Origin: Acidihalobacter prosperus
GTDB lineage: Bacteria > Pseudomonadota > Gammaproteobacteria > DSM-5130 > Acidihalobacteraceae
Length of the DNA stretch: 64,000 nucleotides
NCBI RefSeq assembly: GCF_000754095.2
Contig: NZ_JQSG02000001.1
Span: 481,140 to 545,139, forward strand
Direction of reading: 5' to 3'
Each line of letters starts with the position of its first letter. The first letter of the stretch is position 1. The notes beneath the pieces are model-generated. The model worked only from the letters and a program-made list of their open reading frames with translations, was not told the DNA's origin and ran no database searches. The position numbers and the translations under genes are program-made. Below are positions 32,985-44,171 of this stretch, piece by piece.

Positions 32985-33072
32985 GGAAGAGTGGCCGAGT
33001 GGTTGAAGGCACCGGTCTTGAAAACCGGCAACGGGCAACCGTTCGTGGGTTCGAATCCCACCTCTTCCGCCA
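32985..33072 (+). tRNA. tRNA-Ser(UGA)
   Basis: An 88-base tRNA with a seven-pair acceptor stem (GGAAGAG with CTCTTCC), discriminator G and encoded CCA. The anticodon loop CTTGAAA gives anticodon UGA, reading UCA. The long variable arm and the T loop TTCGAAT are class II, as expected for serine. Confidence 0.97.
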
Positions 33073-33185: not shown

Positions 33186-33995
33186 TTAAAACAGGCTCAA
33201 AAGATCGCCGTGCATCTTGGGCGCGCGATCAGCAGCCTCATTCCAAAAAAGCGCCTCGGTGGCTTCGCTGCCAGCACCACCTCCAACCGTGTATCTGATC
33301 GGTCTCGTTTCCAGGTGGAGACGTCCGAAAACACGGCGGATATCGGGGTGGTCATTGATGCTGATGACGACCATGCCCTGGGCGTTTTCGGCGAACTCCG
33401 CCATACGTTCGTAATGCGCCCATCCGAACTCGACGCCATAGCCCTCGGTCTGCCAGTAAGGCGGGTCGAGGTAGTGCAGCGTATGGGGTCGGTCGTACTT
33501 GCTCGTGACTCTTTCCCATGACAAGTGCTCGATGTAGGTCGATTGCAGGCGCAGGTGTGCCTGGCTGAGATCCTCCTCGAGGCGAAACAGATTCAGGCGT
33601 GGCGGCGAAGTCGTCGCTGTGCCGAAAGCTTGGCCATCGACCTTCCCTCCGAAGCTTAGCTTCTGCAGATAGTAGAAGCGGGCCGCTCGTTGCACATCGG
33701 TCAACGTTTCGGGTGGCGTCATCTGTTGCCATTCATAAATCTTGCGACTGGATAATGCCCACTTGAACTGCCGCACCAATTCCTCGGGATGGTGCTTGAG
33801 CACCCGATAAAGGTTGATCAGCTCGCCGTTGATGTCGTTGAGCACCTCGACATCGGCCGGTGGCTTGGCGAAATAAATCGCGCCGGCACCAGTAAAAGCT
33901 TCGACATAGCACTCATGCCTTGGCAATTTCGGCAGAATCCAGTCTGCCAGGCGTCCCTTGCCACCTATCCACGGGATAACGGGTTTGTGGTTCAC
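33186..33995 (-). CDS. DNA adenine N6-methyltransferase (D12/Dam class)
   Basis: A 269-residue type II/orphan adenine methyltransferase. Residues 7-14 (IPWIGGKG) and 31-41 (VEAFTGAGAIY) form the SAM pocket. The catalytic DPPY is at 177-180, and SINDHPDIR (212-220) is a usual late motif of the class. The start is a GTG with GAGGG six bases before it. No restriction partner is adjacent, so it is probably an orphan that protects phage DNA or alters expression. It is the outermost gene of the phage, where Mu carries its own DNA-modification gene mom. Confidence 0.93.
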   Translation of the reverse strand: MNHKPVIPWIGGKGRLADWILPKLPRHECYVEAFTGAGAIYFAKPPADVEVLNDINGELINLYRVLKHHPEELVRQFKWALSSRKIYEWQQMTPPETLTDVQRAARFYYLQKLSFGGKVDGQAFGTATTSPPRLNLFRLEEDLSQAHLRLQSTYIEHLSWERVTSKYDRPHTLHYLDPPYWQTEGYGVEFGWAHYERMAEFAENAQGMVVISINDHPDIRRVFGRLHLETRPIRYTVGGGAGSEATEALFWNEAADRAPKMHGDLLSLF

Positions 33996-35298: not shown

Positions 35299-38200
35299 CT
35301 AGACGGTGGCGATGGCTGCGGTACCGCGGCCGACGGCGGCGCTGCGTTGATAGACGCGGATGCTGACGGCGGTCTGCGCGGCGCCGAAATCTGCGGTCTG
35401 GTCGGCAGCAGTGTAGGTGTAGGTCGGGCTTGATAGGCTGCTAAGGGTGCGGACGACGGTGGCGCCGTTGAGGATCTCGAGGTCGTACAGCTCGCTGGTC
35501 TCGCCCAGCGGGCAGTAGTCCAATTTCCAGTTGGTCTGGTAACGCGTGCGGCGCACCCAGGTGATCGTCAGATCGCCCGAGCTTGCGCGCTTGCCCTTGA
35601 GGTGGCACGGGCTGTACGGCAACAGGCCGCGGGCGGCATAGACGAGCGCCTCTGTGTCGGCGTTACTCGAGTATGTGCCGAGCGTTGTGCCACGATAGTT
35701 GAGCGTGGCGCCGACGAGGCTGGCGCTTTCGGCCTGGCGCAGCCAGCCGGTGCCGGCGCTCGTGACGGCCGCGAAGCGCTCGAAGGCTGCATGGCTGCCC
35801 ATGGCATCCTCGGTGCCGTAGAGTCCGCGCAGCAGTTTGCTCAGGGTGTAGGTGCCGTCGGCGTTGAGCGTCGCGGTCTGGTATGCGATCAGCTCGCCGC
35901 CGAGCACGGCGAGATTGCTGCCGTTGAGCACCTGCAGCTCGGTCGCGCTGGACAGCGCGCCGGCGTACAGCCGCACGGTGATGGTGGACCCGCGGTCGAA
36001 TACCGTGGTGATGCCGCTGTCCGCGAGCGCAGTGGTGGCGACGCCGAGGGTGGCGGTCTGGCCGATGACGCCGATCTGCGACCAGCTCGCGCCGCCGTCT
36101 CCGCTGCGCTCGATGGCCGCGCCCGGCCAGCCCGACACCAAGCCGGCAGCGGCCATGTAGAGGCCCGGCGTCTGCGCATCGGCGTCGCGCAGCGCGGGGA
36201 TATCGAGCAGCAGCAGATCCGTCGGGCCGGGGATGCTGACCGTGGTGCTCGCCGCCGGCGTGCTGCCGGTGCGGTAGCTGGTGTAATCGGCGGGCTGCTG
36301 GTCGACGCCCTCGATGGTGAGCGGGCCGGGCACCGCGCCGTCTATGCGGGTGATGCGGATCTGATAGCCGCCCCAGGCAAGCACGTCGCCCGGCTCGGCG
36401 GCAAGATAGGTGTGCGGCAGCGCGAATTTGCGCTGCGTGCGCGTGCGCCAGGCGGCGCGCAGGACGATCTCGGCGCGCTGCACGGCCTCGGTCGCATCGA
36501 GCGCGCCGGGATATTGCAGATCGATCGTCTGGCCCTCGGTCGCATCGAGGCGGCGCACGGTCTGCTGCGCGGGCTGCAGGTCGCGCGCGGGGTCCAGGTA
36601 ATGCAGGTTGACCTGCCTCGGCAGCTCGGCCGCTTGCGTGCGCGTGCTGGTCAGCGTGGGGATGTCCTGCGCGGCGAAGTCGTGCGCACCGAGATCGTCC
36701 GGGTCCACGGTGATGGTCTGGGCCTGCGCGCGCGGCCGGAAGATGAGCTTGCCGCCCGACTCGATGCAGTCGACCTGATATAGCGCCAGCGCGCTCGACA
36801 GGGCATCGCGCGCGGTGCTGGGCGCTGGGCGGCTGTATCCGGTGATCGGGATGCCGGTGCACGCGGTCACGTCGATGTCGGCCGCCGTGATCTCGGGCGC
36901 TTCGAGGGCGAGCGTGGTGATGAGGTCGGCCAGGGTCAGCGCCGGGTACTGGCTGATGCCGTCCTCGGTGTAGATCTGGTAGTACTCGCCGGATGCCTTC
37001 TGGATCACGTAGACCTGCCGGGGCGCGACGACGAGCGCGACCAGCGCCGTGGTGGACGTCCACGTCGCCAGCGGCGCGGCACTCGTCCACGCCAGCGACC
37101 AGCCGCTGCCGGTCCAGTCGTACTCCTCCAGGTAGCCGGCGCCATTGACGACGGTCAGCGCGCCGTCTTGCAGGTGGCCGATCTGCCAGTTGGTCGGCAG
37201 CGTGCCGGTCCAGATTTGCTGGATGCCGATATCCCACATGTAGCCGGTATTGACGCCACCGTAATTGGTGATGCACACCGGCTCGCCGCCGGCAAGCGTG
37301 CCGATCACGATGCCGGTGCCGGCGAAACCGATCTGCCGCGCGGCATAAGCGGGCTGCCCGTCCGTGATCTGGCCGGGCGTCACGGTGCTGGCAAGGATGA
37401 TCCCGCTGCCGGCCGCGCCCGCCGAAAAAAACATCGCGTTGCCGGCGATCCCCGCGAATTGAGAGCCGCCCCAGATACCCGTGTATCCGCTCGGACGCGC
37501 CAGATGCTTGACCACGCTGGGCGCGCGCGTGTCGAACACGTACAGCTCGCCGGCGGCATACACAAATCCGTAGGGCGTGCCGGTGATCGGCGCCTGATAG
37601 CTGTAGGGACCGCCCTGTATCGTGTCGAGCGGATACGGGCCGATCAGCTTGACGAGATTGCCCGACTGCACCTGCGCGGCCATGGGCAGCTCGTGGCTGT
37701 ACCAGTCCATGCCCGCCAGATCGAGCAGGCCCTGGTTGACACGCCAGATACGCGGCCATGCCCAGGATGCGGTCGGGTGCAGCGCGGCCGGCAGCGCATA
37801 CGGCCCCAGGGTATGCTGCACGCTGACGGCCGCGCCGCCGGGACGCGCGATCACCTCGGCCTCGATCGGCGGCAGCCGGCCGCCGTATTCCGTGACGTCC
37901 AGCTCGTGGATGACGATATAGCAGGTGCCGAGGTACGCCGGCGGCGCCGCACCCTCGTAGGCCTGGATCGTCGGGTCGGGCCCCTGGGATTCCGAGCCGC
38001 GATAGACCGTGAGCACCTGGCCCTGGGCGTTGCCCAGACCCATCACGACCACGGCCGGGTCCTGGCTGGTGGCGTCGTAGATCAGCTTTTTGGCGGCCCA
38101 CACCCGCACCACGTCGGCCTCGCCCTCGCACAGCGCGACGGCAAAGCTGCGCGTGTAGCTGTATGACTGGGTTTTGGGTCCGCCGTCGCCCTTGCCGCTG

Positions 38201-38478
38201 CTGTCGTGGCTGTGCTCGTTGAGCGGGCCGGCCCAGATCGTCGCGCCGCCCACGCGGATGCGGCCGATCAGGCGCGGGATCGATGCGCCATAATCGGCGC
38301 CCTGAGGCGCCAGGCCCTGCAAGCGCGGACCCTGCAGCGGCGGCGCGTTGGCCGCGCCGATCTGGCCGCCGATGGCCGAGCCGATGGCATAGCCGAGCGC
38401 CACGTTGCCGCCCAAAAAAAACCCAATGGCGCCGCCGAAGATGCCGCCGATCAGCGAGCCGGTCGACTGATCGCTCAT
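35299..38478 (-). CDS. Central tail / host-specificity protein (GTA gp15-like)
   Basis: A 1059-residue tail-tip protein. The first 45 residues are Gly/Ala-rich and hydrophobic (GGIFGGAIGFFLGGNVALGYAIG), as in gpJ-type and GTA tail-tip proteins. Residues about 65-170 have RLIGRIRVGGATIWAG and the Phage-tail_3-like pattern SYSYTRSFAVALCEGEADVVRVWA. A C-terminal fibronectin-like segment precedes the end. It forms the baseplate centre and contacts the fibre. The ATG at 38478 overlaps the NlpC/P60 stop by 4 bp; the frame stays open further upstream as shadow. Confidence 0.88.
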   Translation of the reverse strand: MSDQSTGSLIGGIFGGAIGFFLGGNVALGYAIGSAIGGQIGAANAPPLQGPRLQGLAPQGADYGASIPRLIGRIRVGGATIWAGPLNEHSHDSSGKGDGGPKTQSYSYTRSFAVALCEGEADVVRVWAAKKLIYDATSQDPAVVVMGLGNAQGQVLTVYRGSESQGPDPTIQAYEGAAPPAYLGTCYIVIHELDVTEYGGRLPPIEAEVIARPGGAAVSVQHTLGPYALPAALHPTASWAWPRIWRVNQGLLDLAGMDWYSHELPMAAQVQSGNLVKLIGPYPLDTIQGGPYSYQAPITGTPYGFVYAAGELYVFDTRAPSVVKHLARPSGYTGIWGGSQFAGIAGNAMFFSAGAAGSGIILASTVTPGQITDGQPAYAARQIGFAGTGIVIGTLAGGEPVCITNYGGVNTGYMWDIGIQQIWTGTLPTNWQIGHLQDGALTVVNGAGYLEEYDWTGSGWSLAWTSAAPLATWTSTTALVALVVAPRQVYVIQKASGEYYQIYTEDGISQYPALTLADLITTLALEAPEITAADIDVTACTGIPITGYSRPAPSTARDALSSALALYQVDCIESGGKLIFRPRAQAQTITVDPDDLGAHDFAAQDIPTLTSTRTQAAELPRQVNLHYLDPARDLQPAQQTVRRLDATEGQTIDLQYPGALDATEAVQRAEIVLRAAWRTRTQRKFALPHTYLAAEPGDVLAWGGYQIRITRIDGAVPGPLTIEGVDQQPADYTSYRTGSTPAASTTVSIPGPTDLLLLDIPALRDADAQTPGLYMAAAGLVSGWPGAAIERSGDGGASWSQIGVIGQTATLGVATTALADSGITTVFDRGSTITVRLYAGALSSATELQVLNGSNLAVLGGELIAYQTATLNADGTYTLSKLLRGLYGTEDAMGSHAAFERFAAVTSAGTGWLRQAESASLVGATLNYRGTTLGTYSSNADTEALVYAARGLLPYSPCHLKGKRASSGDLTITWVRRTRYQTNWKLDYCPLGETSELYDLEILNGATVVRTLSSLSSPTYTYTAADQTADFGAAQTAVSIRVYQRSAAVGRGTAAIATV

Positions 38479-38879
38479 GCGCTCACTCCGGGTATCGCAT
38501 ACACCGCCACGCGCCGCCGAGCCCAGCGCGCGCCCTCGGCATGCTCGACGACCCGGCCGGTTTCGAGGCTGGTATGGATGATGGTCTCGCCGCCGATCAG
38601 GGCGAGGTGTTGCGGCTCGGCCATGATGCGATAGACCGCGAGCCGGCCCGGCGCCCAGGCCGTGGGCGACCCGCAGTGCCGACCGAGCAGCGGCAGCAGC
38701 AACCCTGACGGGGTGCGCGAGTAGTCCGTGCGGTCGGGCGGCGTCTCGCCGCAGGCGCGCAGGGCGCAGACGATCAGGCCGATGCAGTCGAGCCCGATGC
38801 CGGGCTGACGCGCCTGATGCACCCACGGCGTGCCGATCATGCCCCGCGCGGCGGCGATGAGGTCATCGGCGGGGATCAT
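38475..38879 (-). CDS. NlpC/P60-family tail peptidase
   Basis: A 134-residue peptidoglycan endopeptidase-like protein of the phage tail tip (GTA gp14 type). The nucleophile Cys lies in GIGLDCIGLIVCALR (about residue 32). The His is in PQHLALIGG (about 91), with a late acidic partner. It likely cuts the cell wall locally during DNA entry. It sits between DUF2163 and the central tail protein as in gene transfer agents, except that a plus-strand cassette separates it from DUF2163. Confidence 0.88.
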   Translation of the reverse strand: MIPADDLIAAARGMIGTPWVHQARQPGIGLDCIGLIVCALRACGETPPDRTDYSRTPSGLLLPLLGRHCGSPTAWAPGRLAVYRIMAEPQHLALIGGETIIHTSLETGRVVEHAEGARWARRRVAVYAIPGVSA

Positions 38880-38935: not shown

Positions 38936-38963
38936 TTGCGATATTTGTTGATTGCTGTATACT
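38936..38963 (+). promoter_or_regulatory. Candidate promoter of the plus-strand moron cassette
   Basis: TTGCGA (38936-38941) and TATACT (38958-38963) are 16 bp apart in a markedly AT-rich stretch. They lie about 41 bp before the first moron gene. Confidence 0.55.
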
Positions 38964-39004: not shown

Positions 39005-39205
39005 ATGAACACAAACAATCAATATGCGGTCTGGAAAGATGGCGATCATTACTTTTACAACCCCAACTGCTACGCCATTAGCAATAGTGTTGGGGACGTG
39101 ATCAACGGGTCTATCTGCGTGTTCATCGGGACGCTCGAAGACTGCGAAAAAGTAGTAAATGACCATCGCGTTGATCAGGGTAGCCTTGCGGATATCCTCA
39201 ATTAA
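39005..39205 (+). CDS. Small hypothetical protein, moron cassette gene 1
   Basis: A 66-residue acidic protein (MNTNNQYAVWKDGDHYFYNP at the start), opposite in direction to the surrounding tail genes. AAGGAG lies eight bases before the ATG, and codon usage is less GC-rich than in its neighbours. No family was recognised. It could serve lysogenic conversion or phage exclusion, but that is a guess from position. Confidence 0.75.
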   Translation: MNTNNQYAVWKDGDHYFYNPNCYAISNSVGDVINGSICVFIGTLEDCEKVVNDHRVDQGSLADILN

Positions 39206-39217
39206 GGAGGCGGGACA

Positions 39218-39418
39218 ATGAGCCGATACACAGCAACAATAAGTCATCACAGCGTCAGCAACGCCCGCCAGATCAAGATCGACGGGACACTTTTGCAGGC
39301 CAAACGCGCGGCCAGCCGTGAGTTCGGCGACGGCTTCATCGCTCATACGATCGTCATCCTGGACGAGCGCGGCGAAGTCGTTGCAGCCCGCAAGATCGGC
39401 GAAAACAGGTGGCACTGA
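39218..39418 (+). CDS. Small hypothetical protein, moron cassette gene 2
   Basis: A 66-residue basic protein that follows gene 1 by 12 bp with AAGGAGG seven bases before its ATG. The predicted pattern is beta-beta-alpha-beta (YTATISHHSVSNARQIKIDG, a helix around KRAASREFG, then IVILDERGEVVAARKI). It may be a small nucleic-acid or protein binding fold; no family was recognised. Confidence 0.72.
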   Translation: MSRYTATISHHSVSNARQIKIDGTLLQAKRAASREFGDGFIAHTIVILDERGEVVAARKIGENRWH

Positions 39419-39591
39419 TGCGCGGCGGCGCAGGCCGCGGCCAGGGGCGAAAGCCCCTGCCGCCAGACCAGCGCCGGCAGCCGGTCCAGTTGAGACTGCC
39501 CCCCGATCTGCTCCGGTGGATCGATGCGCAGGAGGCAACACGGACGGAGATCGTCGAGCGCGCTGTGCGGGCGTTGATGGATAGCCGCTGA
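39418..39591 (+). CDS. Ribbon-helix-helix-like small protein, moron cassette gene 3
   Basis: A 57-residue protein starting at an ATG that overlaps the previous stop (TGATG); a GTG nine bases upstream is an alternative. After a Gly/Arg-rich N-terminus (GAGRGQGRKPLPPDQRR) comes PVQLRLPPDLLRWIDAQEAT and RTEIVERAVRALMD. These are the strand and two helices of a CopG/Arc-like DNA-binding fold. It may regulate its own cassette. It abuts the convergent DUF2163 gene without a gap. Confidence 0.72.
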   Translation: MRGGAGRGQGRKPLPPDQRRQPVQLRLPPDLLRWIDAQEATRTEIVERAVRALMDSR

Positions 39592-40422
39592 TCATTTGCC
39601 GGAATACGCCACATCAGCCCCCGGCACCTGCGGGAAGCCGCGAAAGCGCGGCAGGTTGGCGAATTTAGTGGCGCACGTGGTGTCGGTCTTGTCGCAGCCG
39701 GCGACGGCGGTATAGGTGTCGCCCACGGCGACGGGATACGGCCACGGGTCATAGACGGCGAACACGCCGGCGGTGTAGTCCTGCACCTCGCGCTCAAGCC
39801 CTGCATTCTGCCCGCTGGTCGGCGTCACGCGCCCGCCGGTGTAGTAGCCGTCGCCCTCGGTGCGGGCGCTGTCCGTTAGGCTTGCGCTCGTGCCGGCCGT
39901 CGCGCTGCCGGTGACGGTGTAGCTGACGAGGTTGACGCCGCAGCGGGTATCGCCCAGATCGGCATCGCAGGCGGGGCCGATGGTGCGCCCGATGCGGATC
40001 TGCAGCTGCTGCGTTAGGCTCCTAAATTCGAACTTGACGAGGCCCGATGCCTCTATCGTGATGTTGCCGATGCGGCCGCTGACCAGCTCGACGGGCTCGT
40101 AGCTGCTGGCCGACCAGTCGAGCGTCCAGAGCGTGATCCGGGCGTTGTCGTAGATGCCGGCATCGATGTCGGGCTGATCGAGGCCGGTGCGCACGCCGGT
40201 GTCCATATCGGTGGTGATCACGGACATGTCGGCGCGGGCCATGGTTTGAGTGCGGGTATAGGCATCCGTGGCCGCCCAGGTGTAGCCGCCCCACTGGATA
40301 TCCTCGTCGTGATCGGTCCAGCGCTCGACGACGCCATTGACCAGCGTGAGCTGCCAGATGGTGCAGAGGTTGGCGGTGCCGGCGGCCAGCGCGGCTGCGA
40401 GGGCTGCGCCGAGCGCTCTCAT
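39592..40422 (-). CDS. DUF2163 family tail protein (GTA gp13-like)
   Basis: A 276-residue baseplate hub component. The Cys-rich signature is present: GPACDADLGDTRCGVNLVSY, with TAVAGCDKTDTTCATKFANLPRFRGFPQVPG at the C-terminus ending the BR0599-type consensus. In gene transfer agents this protein holds an iron-sulfur cluster. The start at 40422 overlaps the stop of the 37-residue peptide gene. Confidence 0.9.
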   Translation of the reverse strand: MRALGAALAAALAAGTANLCTIWQLTLVNGVVERWTDHDEDIQWGGYTWAATDAYTRTQTMARADMSVITTDMDTGVRTGLDQPDIDAGIYDNARITLWTLDWSASSYEPVELVSGRIGNITIEASGLVKFEFRSLTQQLQIRIGRTIGPACDADLGDTRCGVNLVSYTVTGSATAGTSASLTDSARTEGDGYYTGGRVTPTSGQNAGLEREVQDYTAGVFAVYDPWPYPVAVGDTYTAVAGCDKTDTTCATKFANLPRFRGFPQVPGADVAYSGK

Positions 40423-40532
40423 GCGCCGCCCTCGGGCTTGTGCGCGTCCCACCAGGCGAGCGCGATGGGCGCCGCGCAGAAGGCGACGAGCAGCAGCAGG
40501 ATGCGGATGGCGGTCTTGCGCAGGCGGATCAT
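40419..40532 (-). CDS. 37-residue membrane peptide coupled to nuclease and DUF2163
   Basis: A tiny gene: basic start MIRLRKTAIR, one hydrophobic helix (about residues 10-27) and a short polar tail. Its ATG overlaps the nuclease stop and its stop overlaps the DUF2163 start, both as ATGA. Double coupling argues that it is translated. The role is unknown. Confidence 0.62.
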   Translation of the reverse strand: MIRLRKTAIRILLLLVAFCAAPIALAWWDAHKPEGGA

Positions 40533-40963
40533 GGGAGACACCATCCCGCGCGCCGGCCGCCGAAATAGGGATGGCCAAGGCCCGCGGCGATCAGGTCGGC
40601 TGCGAGGCTGTCGCCGCCGCGCTTGACCTCGGCGACGACGCGGCCGGCATATTTGCCGAGCTGCACGCGATCGAGCGTGATGCCGCCGCCGCGCGCGAGC
40701 CACGCCGCTGTGAACGCCCGGCCCTTGATGGCCAGCGCGCGCTCGCAGGTGTTGCGGCTGTGCAGCTCGGCGGTGTCCACGCCGTAAATGCGCACGGCAA
40801 GGCGGTAGGTGACATCCGGCCAGATGTCGATATCCATCACGACCGTGTCGCCATCGATCACCCGGACGGGTGTCGCGCGATAGGGGCCGTAGGCCTGCGC
40901 GGCGGCGGCGGGGCCGGCCAACATGACGGATAGCATCAGGATGATTTGCAGGATCACGGTCAC
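40529..40963 (-). CDS. Secreted staphylococcal-type thermonuclease
   Basis: A 144-residue SNase-fold nuclease with a signal peptide (about residues 1-23, ending AGPAAAAQA). The catalytic set is intact: VIDGDT (35-40), Arg58 and Asp63/Glu66 in VRIYGVDTAE, and Arg108 in GKYAGRVVAEV. It should cleave DNA or RNA in the periplasm or outside, with Ca2+. It lies inside the tail operon, overlapping DUF2460 by 4 bp, which is not the usual place for such a gene. Confidence 0.9.
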   Translation of the reverse strand: MTVILQIILMLSVMLAGPAAAAQAYGPYRATPVRVIDGDTVVMDIDIWPDVTYRLAVRIYGVDTAELHSRNTCERALAIKGRAFTAAWLARGGGITLDRVQLGKYAGRVVAEVKRGGDSLAADLIAAGLGHPYFGGRRAGWCLP

Positions 40964-41799
40964 AATCTGATCTCCACGACAGTGAGCGACGCGAGGTCGA
41001 ACAGGGCATCGCCGGTATCCGGGTCCGCGACCGCGAAGGTCGCGCTGAATTGATCGGTGTCGAAACGCGCGGGCACGTGAAAGCTGCCGCTCCAGAGTAT
41101 GGCCTCGCCCGGCTGCGGGTAGAGGTCGAGCGTGGGCGCGTTGAGCGAGCCGCTCGCGCTGGTGTCGAGCGCGAGGGTAATGGCGTTGGCCGTGGTGTCG
41201 CGCGCGGTGATCTTGACGGCCTGGGCGGCATAGCCGGTCAGGTTGCTGATCCAGACCAGATTATTGACGGTATAGACCGCAGCCGAGGCGACGTTGACGA
41301 CGGTCGTCGCACCGGGCGTGGCCGACGCGGCGATCTCATGATGATCGGCACTGAAGGTGAGGATGCCGGTGGTGGTGTCCAGCGCGCTGTAGGCATAGGC
41401 GCTGCCGGCGCGGGTCAGCGTCGCGCCGGCATTAGGCTTGGAGATGGTGCGCTGGTAACTGCCGGCGCTGTCCTGGTAGGTCTTGACGAGCTGCGCAGTG
41501 GGCGCGCCGGTCAGCGTGAGCGCTTCGCCGGCGGCGCTGTAGTCTTGCCAGTCGAGGAAGCGGAAACCCTCGTATTGCCCGCTGCGGGCGCGGAAAAACG
41601 CGAGCAGATAGCCGATCTCGGCGCGGTTGATGCGGCGCTGCCCGATCTGCCACTTGCCGCGGCTCGCGCTCCAGCGCCGCGTGCGGTATTCGCGGCCCGA
41701 GGCGGTCGCCGTGATGATGGTGTCGTACTGCGGGCCGCCGACCGTGGCATAGTCGTAGCCGAGGTCGAGCAGGATCTCCGCGAAGGGCGCGCCGCTCAC
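40960..41799 (-). CDS. DUF2460 family tail protein (GTA gp12-like)
   Basis: A 279-residue distal tail protein. The family pattern is clear: FAEILLDLGYDYATVGGPQY, ITATASGREYRTRRWSASR, EIGYLLAFFRARSGQYEGFRF, and a C-terminal FDLASLTVVEIRL. In gene transfer agents and related siphophages it joins the tail tube to the baseplate hub. It overlaps the tape measure by 4 bp. Confidence 0.92.
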   Translation of the reverse strand: MSGAPFAEILLDLGYDYATVGGPQYDTIITATASGREYRTRRWSASRGKWQIGQRRINRAEIGYLLAFFRARSGQYEGFRFLDWQDYSAAGEALTLTGAPTAQLVKTYQDSAGSYQRTISKPNAGATLTRAGSAYAYSALDTTTGILTFSADHHEIAASATPGATTVVNVASAAVYTVNNLVWISNLTGYAAQAVKITARDTTANAITLALDTSASGSLNAPTLDLYPQPGEAILWSGSFHVPARFDTDQFSATFAVADPDTGDALFDLASLTVVEIRL

Positions 41800-44171
41800 G
41801 AATTCCGCCTCAGACCGTGGGTCAGCGCGGCGCCGAGGTCCGCGGCGATCTGCCCGTGTGAGCGTTTAAAGCTGGCCACGTCCGGCGAGTGCACGGTCAT
41901 GTTGACGACGACCGGCTGGCTGGCCGCGCCCTGCGCGAGGTGCTTGCGGCTGAGCACCATCTCGCCGCGCTGCAGGATGGCCGGCACCTCATCGGCCGCG
42001 AGGCCGGGGAAGCCGCCGTTGTGGAATCTCGGCGCGGCCGCGAACGCCATCGCAGGGACGGCCGCGCTGCGGCCGCCGGTGCCGACGACGCCGCCCTCGT
42101 GAAAATATTTAGCCGCCCATGAGCCCAGCGTGCCCACCCAGCCGCCGAGGCCGCCGCCGCTGCCGAAATTGGCGCCGAACAGCTTGCTGGCGATCTGCGC
42201 CGCCGCCGCCTGCGCGGCCATGCGCTGCAAGGTCTGCGCGAAGGCTTGCTCAAGCCCCTTTAAACCCTGTTTGAAGGGGTTGGTCAGAAAGTTGGCCAGG
42301 TCGGACTGGATGCCGCGCGCCGCGCCCACGAAAAACTGGTTCAGCGATGAGCTGGTCTTCTTGGCAGCGTCGGATGCAGCCTTGAGCTGCTTGGTGACCT
42401 TGTCGACGGCCATCTGATATTGCGCGGCGCTGAGATCCCCGGCCTGATATTCGAGCGTGATCTGGTGCAGCTCGCGCTGATATTTCAGCGTCGGATCGAG
42501 CATGTCCTTGACGCGTTGTGCATCGTCGGCGAGTTGCTTGGCATGGCGCTTGGCCTGCGCCTCGGCTTGTTTCTCTGCCTCGGCCTTCTTTTTTGCCGCG
42601 TCGGCGACGGCTTTGAGCTTATCGATCTGATCAAGCAGCACGCGGGCCTCGGCGATCTGTGCCGATGTCGCCCCTTCGGTGCGCAATTTGTAGAGCATCA
42701 CCTCGCGCGACGTCTGGCCATAGGTTGCCGACTGCATTCGCAGTGAGTCGATGATGGCGTTGATCGACTTGAGCTGCTCGGGTGTCTGCATCGATGTGAT
42801 GCTGTCGAGAATGCTCTTGCTGACGAATTGGTTGAGCTGATCTAGCTGCTGCGCGGTACCGACTGCATCCTTACCTGCCTGGTGCAGCGGCGAATTGCCG
42901 GACGAAGCAGGGCCGGTTGGCTTTGAGTAGTCGTGAAGTTCGCGCTGTGCCTGCGCGAGCTGCTTTTGCAGGGACGCCAGCTTGGCCTTTAGCTGGTCGG
43001 AGTTCTTACGCCATTCGGGCATCTGTTGCCCGAACATTGCCGCCATGGCCGATTTTTTCCATGCCGGCGCGTTGATGGTGTCCTGCAGACGTTGAATCTC
43101 GGTTTTGAGCCGGGAGATTCGTACGCGCAATTGATGCGGGTAGGAGGCGTCGAAACCCTTCATCTTGGCAACCAAAACACCGAGGTCAGAGCTGAAACGC
43201 CCGACCAGAGCAAGCGCCTTCACCATGTAGTCAATGAAGCGCCCAAATCCACCAATCAGATTATTCAGGCCTTGCTGGATGGCAGGGTCATTCAGCTCAT
43301 GATTCAGCGTTTGGATCGATTGCGTAAGGGACTCGACGAAGCCGGACGGCTGTGTCTCCAGCTCGAAGATGGTGGTATGCAGACGGTTGAGTTCGGCATT
43401 CAATGAATGCGATGCGCTAACGGCTTCCGGGCCGTATTTTTCGCGCAGCAGTGCGGTGAATTCTTCGAAGAATTGCTTGGCCGGAACTCCGCCATGCTGA
43501 AGCATGTCGTTCAGATTTCCACCCATGCGCTGAACGGCTTCGCTGACCAGCTCGAACGTACCGGGCAGGTGCTGCGCGATCGCACGGAAGTCCTGCATCT
43601 GCAGCCTGCCGAGACTCATGCCCTGTTCGAGCTGGATGAGCAATCCGGACACGTCCTCGGCCGGCGTGTGGAGCACGGTGAAGGTATCTGCCAGGCCGAT
43701 GAAACCCTGGTGAAATTGTTCCTGCGTCAGACCGGCGCTGTAGGCGCTGACCGCCAGGCGCGCGTAAGACTGCGCGGTCAACTGGAGAGCAAGCCCGAGC
43801 CGTTTGCTGGTCTCGCCGACGAACGCCATCTCTTGGCTAGCCCCAGCAGCTGATCCCGTGACATTCTCAAAGGTGTAATGGATGCGCTGCGCCGCGACGT
43901 TAGCCTCGACCAGGCCGCCCGTGAATCGAGTGATGAGATCGCCTGCGTAATAGAGCAGGAACGAATCGCGCAGATCCCGAAACGCACGCGCCGCCATGGA
44001 CGCCCCGTGCGCGGCCTGCTCGGTGGATTTGTTGAGCTGCTTCATGCCGGCGCTGGCCGTGACGCCAGATTCACCTGTGCGTTTGACCTCGCCGGTGATT
44101 TTCTCAAGCTGGCCGACGGCCTGCTGGATATCGGCGCGGATTCGGATCAGCAAATTCATGTCAGTGGACAT
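41796..44171 (-). CDS. Tape measure protein
   Basis: A 791-residue protein setting the tail length. Residues about 65-250 contain the tape-measure N-terminal domain (AAQRIHYTFENVTGSAAGAS, GMSLGRLQMQDFRAIAQHLPGTF). Long helical, Lys/Ala/Gln-rich coiled coil covers about 350-610. The C-terminal 120 residues are Gly/Ala-rich with FHEGGVVGTGGRSAAVPAMAF, a motif common at the end of these proteins. GGAG eight bases before the ATG is a good ribosome site. At about 0.15 nm per residue this suggests a tail a little over 110 nm. Confidence 0.93.
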   Translation of the reverse strand: MSTDMNLLIRIRADIQQAVGQLEKITGEVKRTGESGVTASAGMKQLNKSTEQAAHGASMAARAFRDLRDSFLLYYAGDLITRFTGGLVEANVAAQRIHYTFENVTGSAAGASQEMAFVGETSKRLGLALQLTAQSYARLAVSAYSAGLTQEQFHQGFIGLADTFTVLHTPAEDVSGLLIQLEQGMSLGRLQMQDFRAIAQHLPGTFELVSEAVQRMGGNLNDMLQHGGVPAKQFFEEFTALLREKYGPEAVSASHSLNAELNRLHTTIFELETQPSGFVESLTQSIQTLNHELNDPAIQQGLNNLIGGFGRFIDYMVKALALVGRFSSDLGVLVAKMKGFDASYPHQLRVRISRLKTEIQRLQDTINAPAWKKSAMAAMFGQQMPEWRKNSDQLKAKLASLQKQLAQAQRELHDYSKPTGPASSGNSPLHQAGKDAVGTAQQLDQLNQFVSKSILDSITSMQTPEQLKSINAIIDSLRMQSATYGQTSREVMLYKLRTEGATSAQIAEARVLLDQIDKLKAVADAAKKKAEAEKQAEAQAKRHAKQLADDAQRVKDMLDPTLKYQRELHQITLEYQAGDLSAAQYQMAVDKVTKQLKAASDAAKKTSSSLNQFFVGAARGIQSDLANFLTNPFKQGLKGLEQAFAQTLQRMAAQAAAAQIASKLFGANFGSGGGLGGWVGTLGSWAAKYFHEGGVVGTGGRSAAVPAMAFAAAPRFHNGGFPGLAADEVPAILQRGEMVLSRKHLAQGAASQPVVVNMTVHSPDVASFKRSHGQIAADLGAALTHGLRRNS

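Follow-up and report, generated by a model that had tools for sequence, protein, structure and literature searches.

Why would a prophage carry the gene for an apparently secreted nuclease in the middle of its tail operon? The locus lies in a stretch of 64,000 nucleotides from Acidihalobacter prosperus (the window), within an element that, judged by its Mu-type head genes, Mor-like activator, DUF2730 and D12 methyltransferase, is a Mu-like prophage whose tail is of the GTA type. On the minus strand the tape measure gene is followed by DUF2460, a thermonuclease-like gene (SNase), the gene of a 37-residue peptide (pep37) and DUF2163, and then by the NlpC/P60 peptidase and the GTA-type tail tip protein (Table 1). 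Every junction from the tape measure gene to DUF2163 is a 4-base overlap. The initial annotation had described the overlaps around the nuclease as ATGA, which is correct for SNase/pep37 and pep37/DUF2163, where pep37 and DUF2163 start with ATG, but not for DUF2460/SNase, where the overlap is GTGA; DUF2460 and SNase both start with GTG. The ribosome site of SNase (GGAGAT) is a good match, and that of DUF2163 (GAGGG) sits within the last codons of pep37. The putatively exported SNase and its peptide are an insertion at the DUF2460/DUF2163 boundary, and the tail genes on either side remain translationally coupled through it. Since the GC and GC3 of SNase equal those of its tail neighbours, the gene is not an obvious recent import. 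A D12-class adenine methyltransferase gene (33186-33995, minus strand) appears to be the last prophage gene, adjoining tRNA-Ser (32985-33072, plus strand).

Table 1. Genes of the prophage tail locus, in window coordinates.
Feature	Position	Strand	Evidence and remarks
Tape measure protein, first of the overlapping gene chain	41796..44171	-	TMP_3 E 1.5e-25
DUF2460 distal tail protein, upstream flank	40960..41799	-	Pfam PF09343 E 1.1e-37
SNase-fold nuclease	40529..40963	-	144 aa, GTG start; PHROG 452, AF2, Foldseek, conserved residues
pep37, 37-aa hydrophobic peptide (single-pass membrane or signal-like)	40419..40532	-	ATGA-coupled both sides
DUF2163 / baseplate hub (TIGR02218), downstream flank	39592..40422	-	PF09931 E 2.5e-47; TIGR02218 E 1.7e-50
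NlpC/P60 tail peptidase	38475..38879	-	TIGR02219 E 1.7e-10 (below cut-off); PHROG 329 minor tail protein E 1.1e-11
GTA-type tail tip protein	35299..38826	-	Phage-tail_3 E 7.6e-35; Rcc01698_C E 2e-26

By its profile matches, the nuclease is a member of a divergent subfamily: the Pfam SNase profile PF00565 scores 16.1 bits, under its gathering score of 21 bits, while the PHROG 452 endonuclease profile recovers it with an E-value of 7e-19. An AlphaFold (AF2) model built on 61 sequences has a pLDDT of 93.7, and every listed match of this model in a Foldseek search against the PDB is a staphylococcal nuclease (top E about 1e-6). Residues D39, R58, D63, E66 and R108, which by motif we take to be Asp21, Arg35, Asp40, Glu43 and Arg87 of the established SNase numbering, are kept in 143-145 of 146 family members. 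Modelled fold and catalytic set place the gene in the SNase/thermonuclease superfamily despite the low Pfam score, and bear out the initial annotation of a thermonuclease with a full catalytic set between DUF2460 and DUF2163, down to the position of the open reading frames. The signal peptide that had been proposed along with it fares less evenly. The leader MTVILQIILMLSVMLAGPAAAAQA has a hydrophobic core and a plausible AAA/AQA-type cleavage site, and a hydrophobic N-terminus (mostly MKK or MRK plus a hydrophobic stretch) occurs in 133 of 146 family members; the n-region of this copy, however, contains neither Lys nor Arg. A Cys pair is likewise present in 133/146 members, its first Cys being displaced by two residues in the window SNase. 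With profile match, leader and Cys pair, the protein falls among the PHROG 452-like exported phage SNases, and its prediction as an exported, catalytically complete nuclease that is active outside the cytoplasm is well supported.

The window SNase shares with staphylococcal nuclease the fold, the Asp/Arg/Asp/Glu/Arg catalytic set and secretion (predicted here), but the two are about 20-25% identical, and the window protein has an extra conserved Cys pair, a short WC C-terminus and a place in a prophage tail operon. The SNase-like endonucleases of PHROG 452 (the Rhizobium phage 'nuclease SNase-like protein' and cyanophage T4-GC 228) have the same fold and catalytic residues, share a C-terminal PY..WC-type motif with it and mostly carry an N-terminal hydrophobic leader. 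Their genes, however, adjoin DNA-metabolism, terminase or lysis genes, whereas the window SNase is coupled into a tail operon.

How unusual is this placement? DUF2460 and DUF2163 had been said to touch each other normally, and so they do: among 155 measurable junctions (viral contig scans seeded with DUF2163 and with DUF2460, plus five annotated phages, shared contigs removed) the gap is at most 30 nt in 138, 31-250 nt in 10 and above 250 nt in 7. A search of such gaps for SNase genes, as the initial annotation had suggested, found none in these 155 other junctions among the best 80 viral loci per scan. The inserts that do occur at the boundary are unrelated to SNase, for example a TnpB-like transposase gene, which fills it in a near relative (L049, 4398-5630) and also in L292. 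In the three nearest DUF2460 relatives (L288-L290, 44-45% identical) DUF2460 overlaps DUF2163 directly, meaning that the site is empty. The reverse search agrees: among 145 SNase relatives on viral and bacterial contigs (again limited to the best 80 viral loci), DUF2460 or DUF2163 is a neighbour in this prophage alone. The placement is unique within these searches, both of which covered the best 80 viral loci, such that rare further cases may exist. Nor did the literature searched, the coverage of which was incomplete, describe a tail operon with an exported SNase. The claim that the layout lacks a described counterpart is upheld within these searches, though the enzyme is common. DUF2163 itself can be interrupted: in L038 and L043 some 700-900 nt are inserted between its N- and C-terminal halves, in frame for L043, and the DUF2163 matches of Caulobacter and Brevundimonas phages are likewise in two pieces.

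Indeed, SNases with an export leader and the Cys pair occur widely among phages, with hundreds of matches; phages commonly carry such an enzyme as an accessory of an already known family, and its placement in a tail operon is what is unusual. The gene keeps varied company. In the lysis cassettes of several separate phages it adjoins GH19-type endolysins in L016, L153, L178, L188 and L191, and an M15 endolysin with holin-like genes in L139 and L167; holin- or spanin-like genes accompany the GH19-type or M15 endolysin in MW202675, L139, L153, L167, L178, L188 and L191, and in L179 the SNase lies near a lysozyme resembling the window's own. Elsewhere it adjoins the terminase (L137 and L182, as read from the sequence, and P-SSM4 by annotation), a RecA-like gene together with a DNA polymerase (L147, again as read from the sequence) or, in other family loci, ribonucleotide reductase. 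Cell-wall hydrolases and holins are somewhat commoner within 3 genes of SNase than 6-9 genes away, but not significantly so in this unbiased comparison; a first version of the lysis-cassette enrichment was discarded because its seeds had been drawn from the SNase loci themselves. An association of the family with lysis genes is no more than suggestive. In the tree, the window SNase has L252 and L018/L236 (homologue at 4044-4466 in L018) among its neighbours; in the latter the catalytic Arg and Glu are replaced by Gly and Ser, changes seen in two family members in total, and this homologue is probably inactive. Because SNase changes gene context while keeping its leader, Cys pair and active site, it is best read as an independent, mobile accessory DNase that would act outside the cytoplasm and not as a tail part. 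We consider the label 'extracytoplasmic DNase' quite likely to be right. The literature searched yielded no function for exported Cys-paired phage SNases.

The explanation we favour overall, with a probability of roughly 0.45, is that of an exported DNase, produced late, that would attack periplasmic or lysate DNA. Being coupled to tail synthesis, SNase would be made late, together with the tail proteins; it would be exported by Sec, acquire its disulphide bond and become calcium-active only outside the cytoplasm. Calcium dependence is established SNase biochemistry, and together with disulphide formation it should leave the enzyme inactive in the cytoplasm, where the phage's own replicating DNA would thus be spared. 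Its substrate would be periplasmic DNA and mainly the DNA spilled at cell lysis, the digestion of which could free virions or yield nucleotides. That the payoff comes mainly at lysis is a tentative suggestion. We count in favour of a role in periplasm or lysate the empty sites, the SNase fold, the conserved leader, Cys pair and active site, the lysis-cassette loci, the composition and the ribosome site borne by pep37; against it count the n-region of this copy, the many family members that lie beside DNA-metabolism genes rather than lysis genes, and the lack of significance in the unbiased comparison.

Another question regards the peptide. The tiny hydrophobic product coupled after the nuclease is as first described: when its bases are shuffled, none of the 2876 stop-free sequences reaches its maximum hydropathy over 17 residues, and its GC3 is 0.95. 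Its sequence is compatible with a single-pass membrane peptide and equally with a signal peptide whose A-L-A site would leave 11 residues. Both pep37 and the prophage are known from one copy. Matches in phage records, related genomes and PHROGs did not rise beyond chance level, and pep37 did not accompany other SNase family members in any searched case. In many T4-like contigs a conserved acidic zinc-ribbon-like protein of 47-56 aa (CxxC...CPFC) is ATGA-coupled to SNase, lying directly downstream of it in L142, L146, L149, L162, L192 and others. Such small ATGA-coupled ORFs were rejected as a conserved partner, as they are not membrane peptides. Most likely, pep37 either maintains ribosome coupling into DUF2163 or is a small membrane or signal peptide that is there incidentally. 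The part of anchor or immunity factor that had been put forward for it is speculative, as no relative of the peptide turned up.

As the main alternative, the pair may act against other phages. The exported SNase would then cut DNA of other phages or plasmids stalled in the periplasm of an infected cell, while injection might be blocked or diverted by the peptide, the pair thus resembling T4 Imm plus host endonuclease I. The initial annotation had proposed such a periplasmic barrier against competing phages, and one half of it stands: sequence and family point to an exported, complete nuclease outside the cytoplasm. The exclusion of competitors is more speculative: family members sit among many different kinds of genes, in all searched cases without pep37 and outside GTA-type tail modules. 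An exported nuclease with a coupled hydrophobic peptide does suit a barrier, and there are precedents. SNIPE, an inner-membrane protein with a TM segment and cytoplasmic DUF4041 and GIY-YIG domains, cuts DNA during injection and shows that nuclease attack at this stage is a real defence (PMC13190303). The HK97 moron gp15 is an exclusion protein according to a title in the reference list of the same paper (PMC13190303). The window SNase resembles SNIPE as an envelope-placed nuclease that could meet incoming phage DNA, but it is exported, has 144 aa and the SNase fold and contains neither DUF4041 nor GIY-YIG, which places it outside the SNIPE type. Moreover, pep37 is without relatives and absent beside other SNases, and the genes are probably silent in the lysogen because they belong to the late tail operon. 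Injected phage DNA is also usually shielded from the periplasm. In the literature searched none of the SNase family is known to act in exclusion, and nothing ties a phage thermonuclease to superinfection exclusion, a moron or a lysis cassette. Exclusion by SNase is a possible role, but we regard it as rather unlikely. Its elaborated form, a two-part entry barrier in which pep37 would hold up foreign DNA as it arrives at the inner membrane, leaving SNase to cut it in the periplasm as a self-contained analogue of T4 Imm and endonuclease I, seems improbable.

The insertion could also be incidental cargo, tolerated by the phage but not selected for any function. Its singleton position fits this, as does the unrelated cargo (such as the TnpB-like transposase) that occasionally occupies the same boundary. 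However, the open frame, intact catalytic set, neighbour-matched composition and retained coupling make mere cargo an unlikely explanation. With phage morons such as HK97 gp15 the pair shares the position of an extra gene between conserved tail genes and a small hydrophobic product (pep37), and the flanking genes are adjacent in relatives (138/155 tight, L288-L290 empty). Classical morons, though, have their own promoter and terminator, whereas here the genes are co-directional with 4-base overlaps on all sides, and a crude sigma-70 scan found no promoter-like site near SNase or pep37. Between DUF2163 and NlpC, three small opposite-strand ORFs (39005-39595, plus strand) look like a classical moron cassette: the first, AT-rich at a GC of 0.46, has a promoter-like site at 38936-38963, and the translation of the third resembles a ribbon-helix-helix protein.

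A benefit to the lysogen or its population is also conceivable, with a DNase secreted for nutrition, for the eDNA of biofilms or for limiting DNA uptake. The closest tree members of SNase are mainly bacterial-contig genes and the family also occurs on plasmids, but the gene lies on the same strand as the late tail genes and is coupled to them, and the crude scan gave it no promoter-like site of its own; we think this improbable. Finally, that SNase is a virion-borne tail component acting at the next infection, as had also been suggested and as its position and overlaps between two structural genes would fit, is very unlikely in view of the leader and Cys pair that the family shares, the cytoplasmic assembly of tails, the nearest tail modules that work without SNase, and the family members elsewhere, which are not in GTA-type tail modules.

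The translational coupling into the tail operon ties production of the nuclease to virion assembly. Together with the empty-site relatives, the locus lends itself to a clean test of what phages gain from exporting DNases, be it lysate clearance, nucleotide recovery or the blocking of rival DNA.
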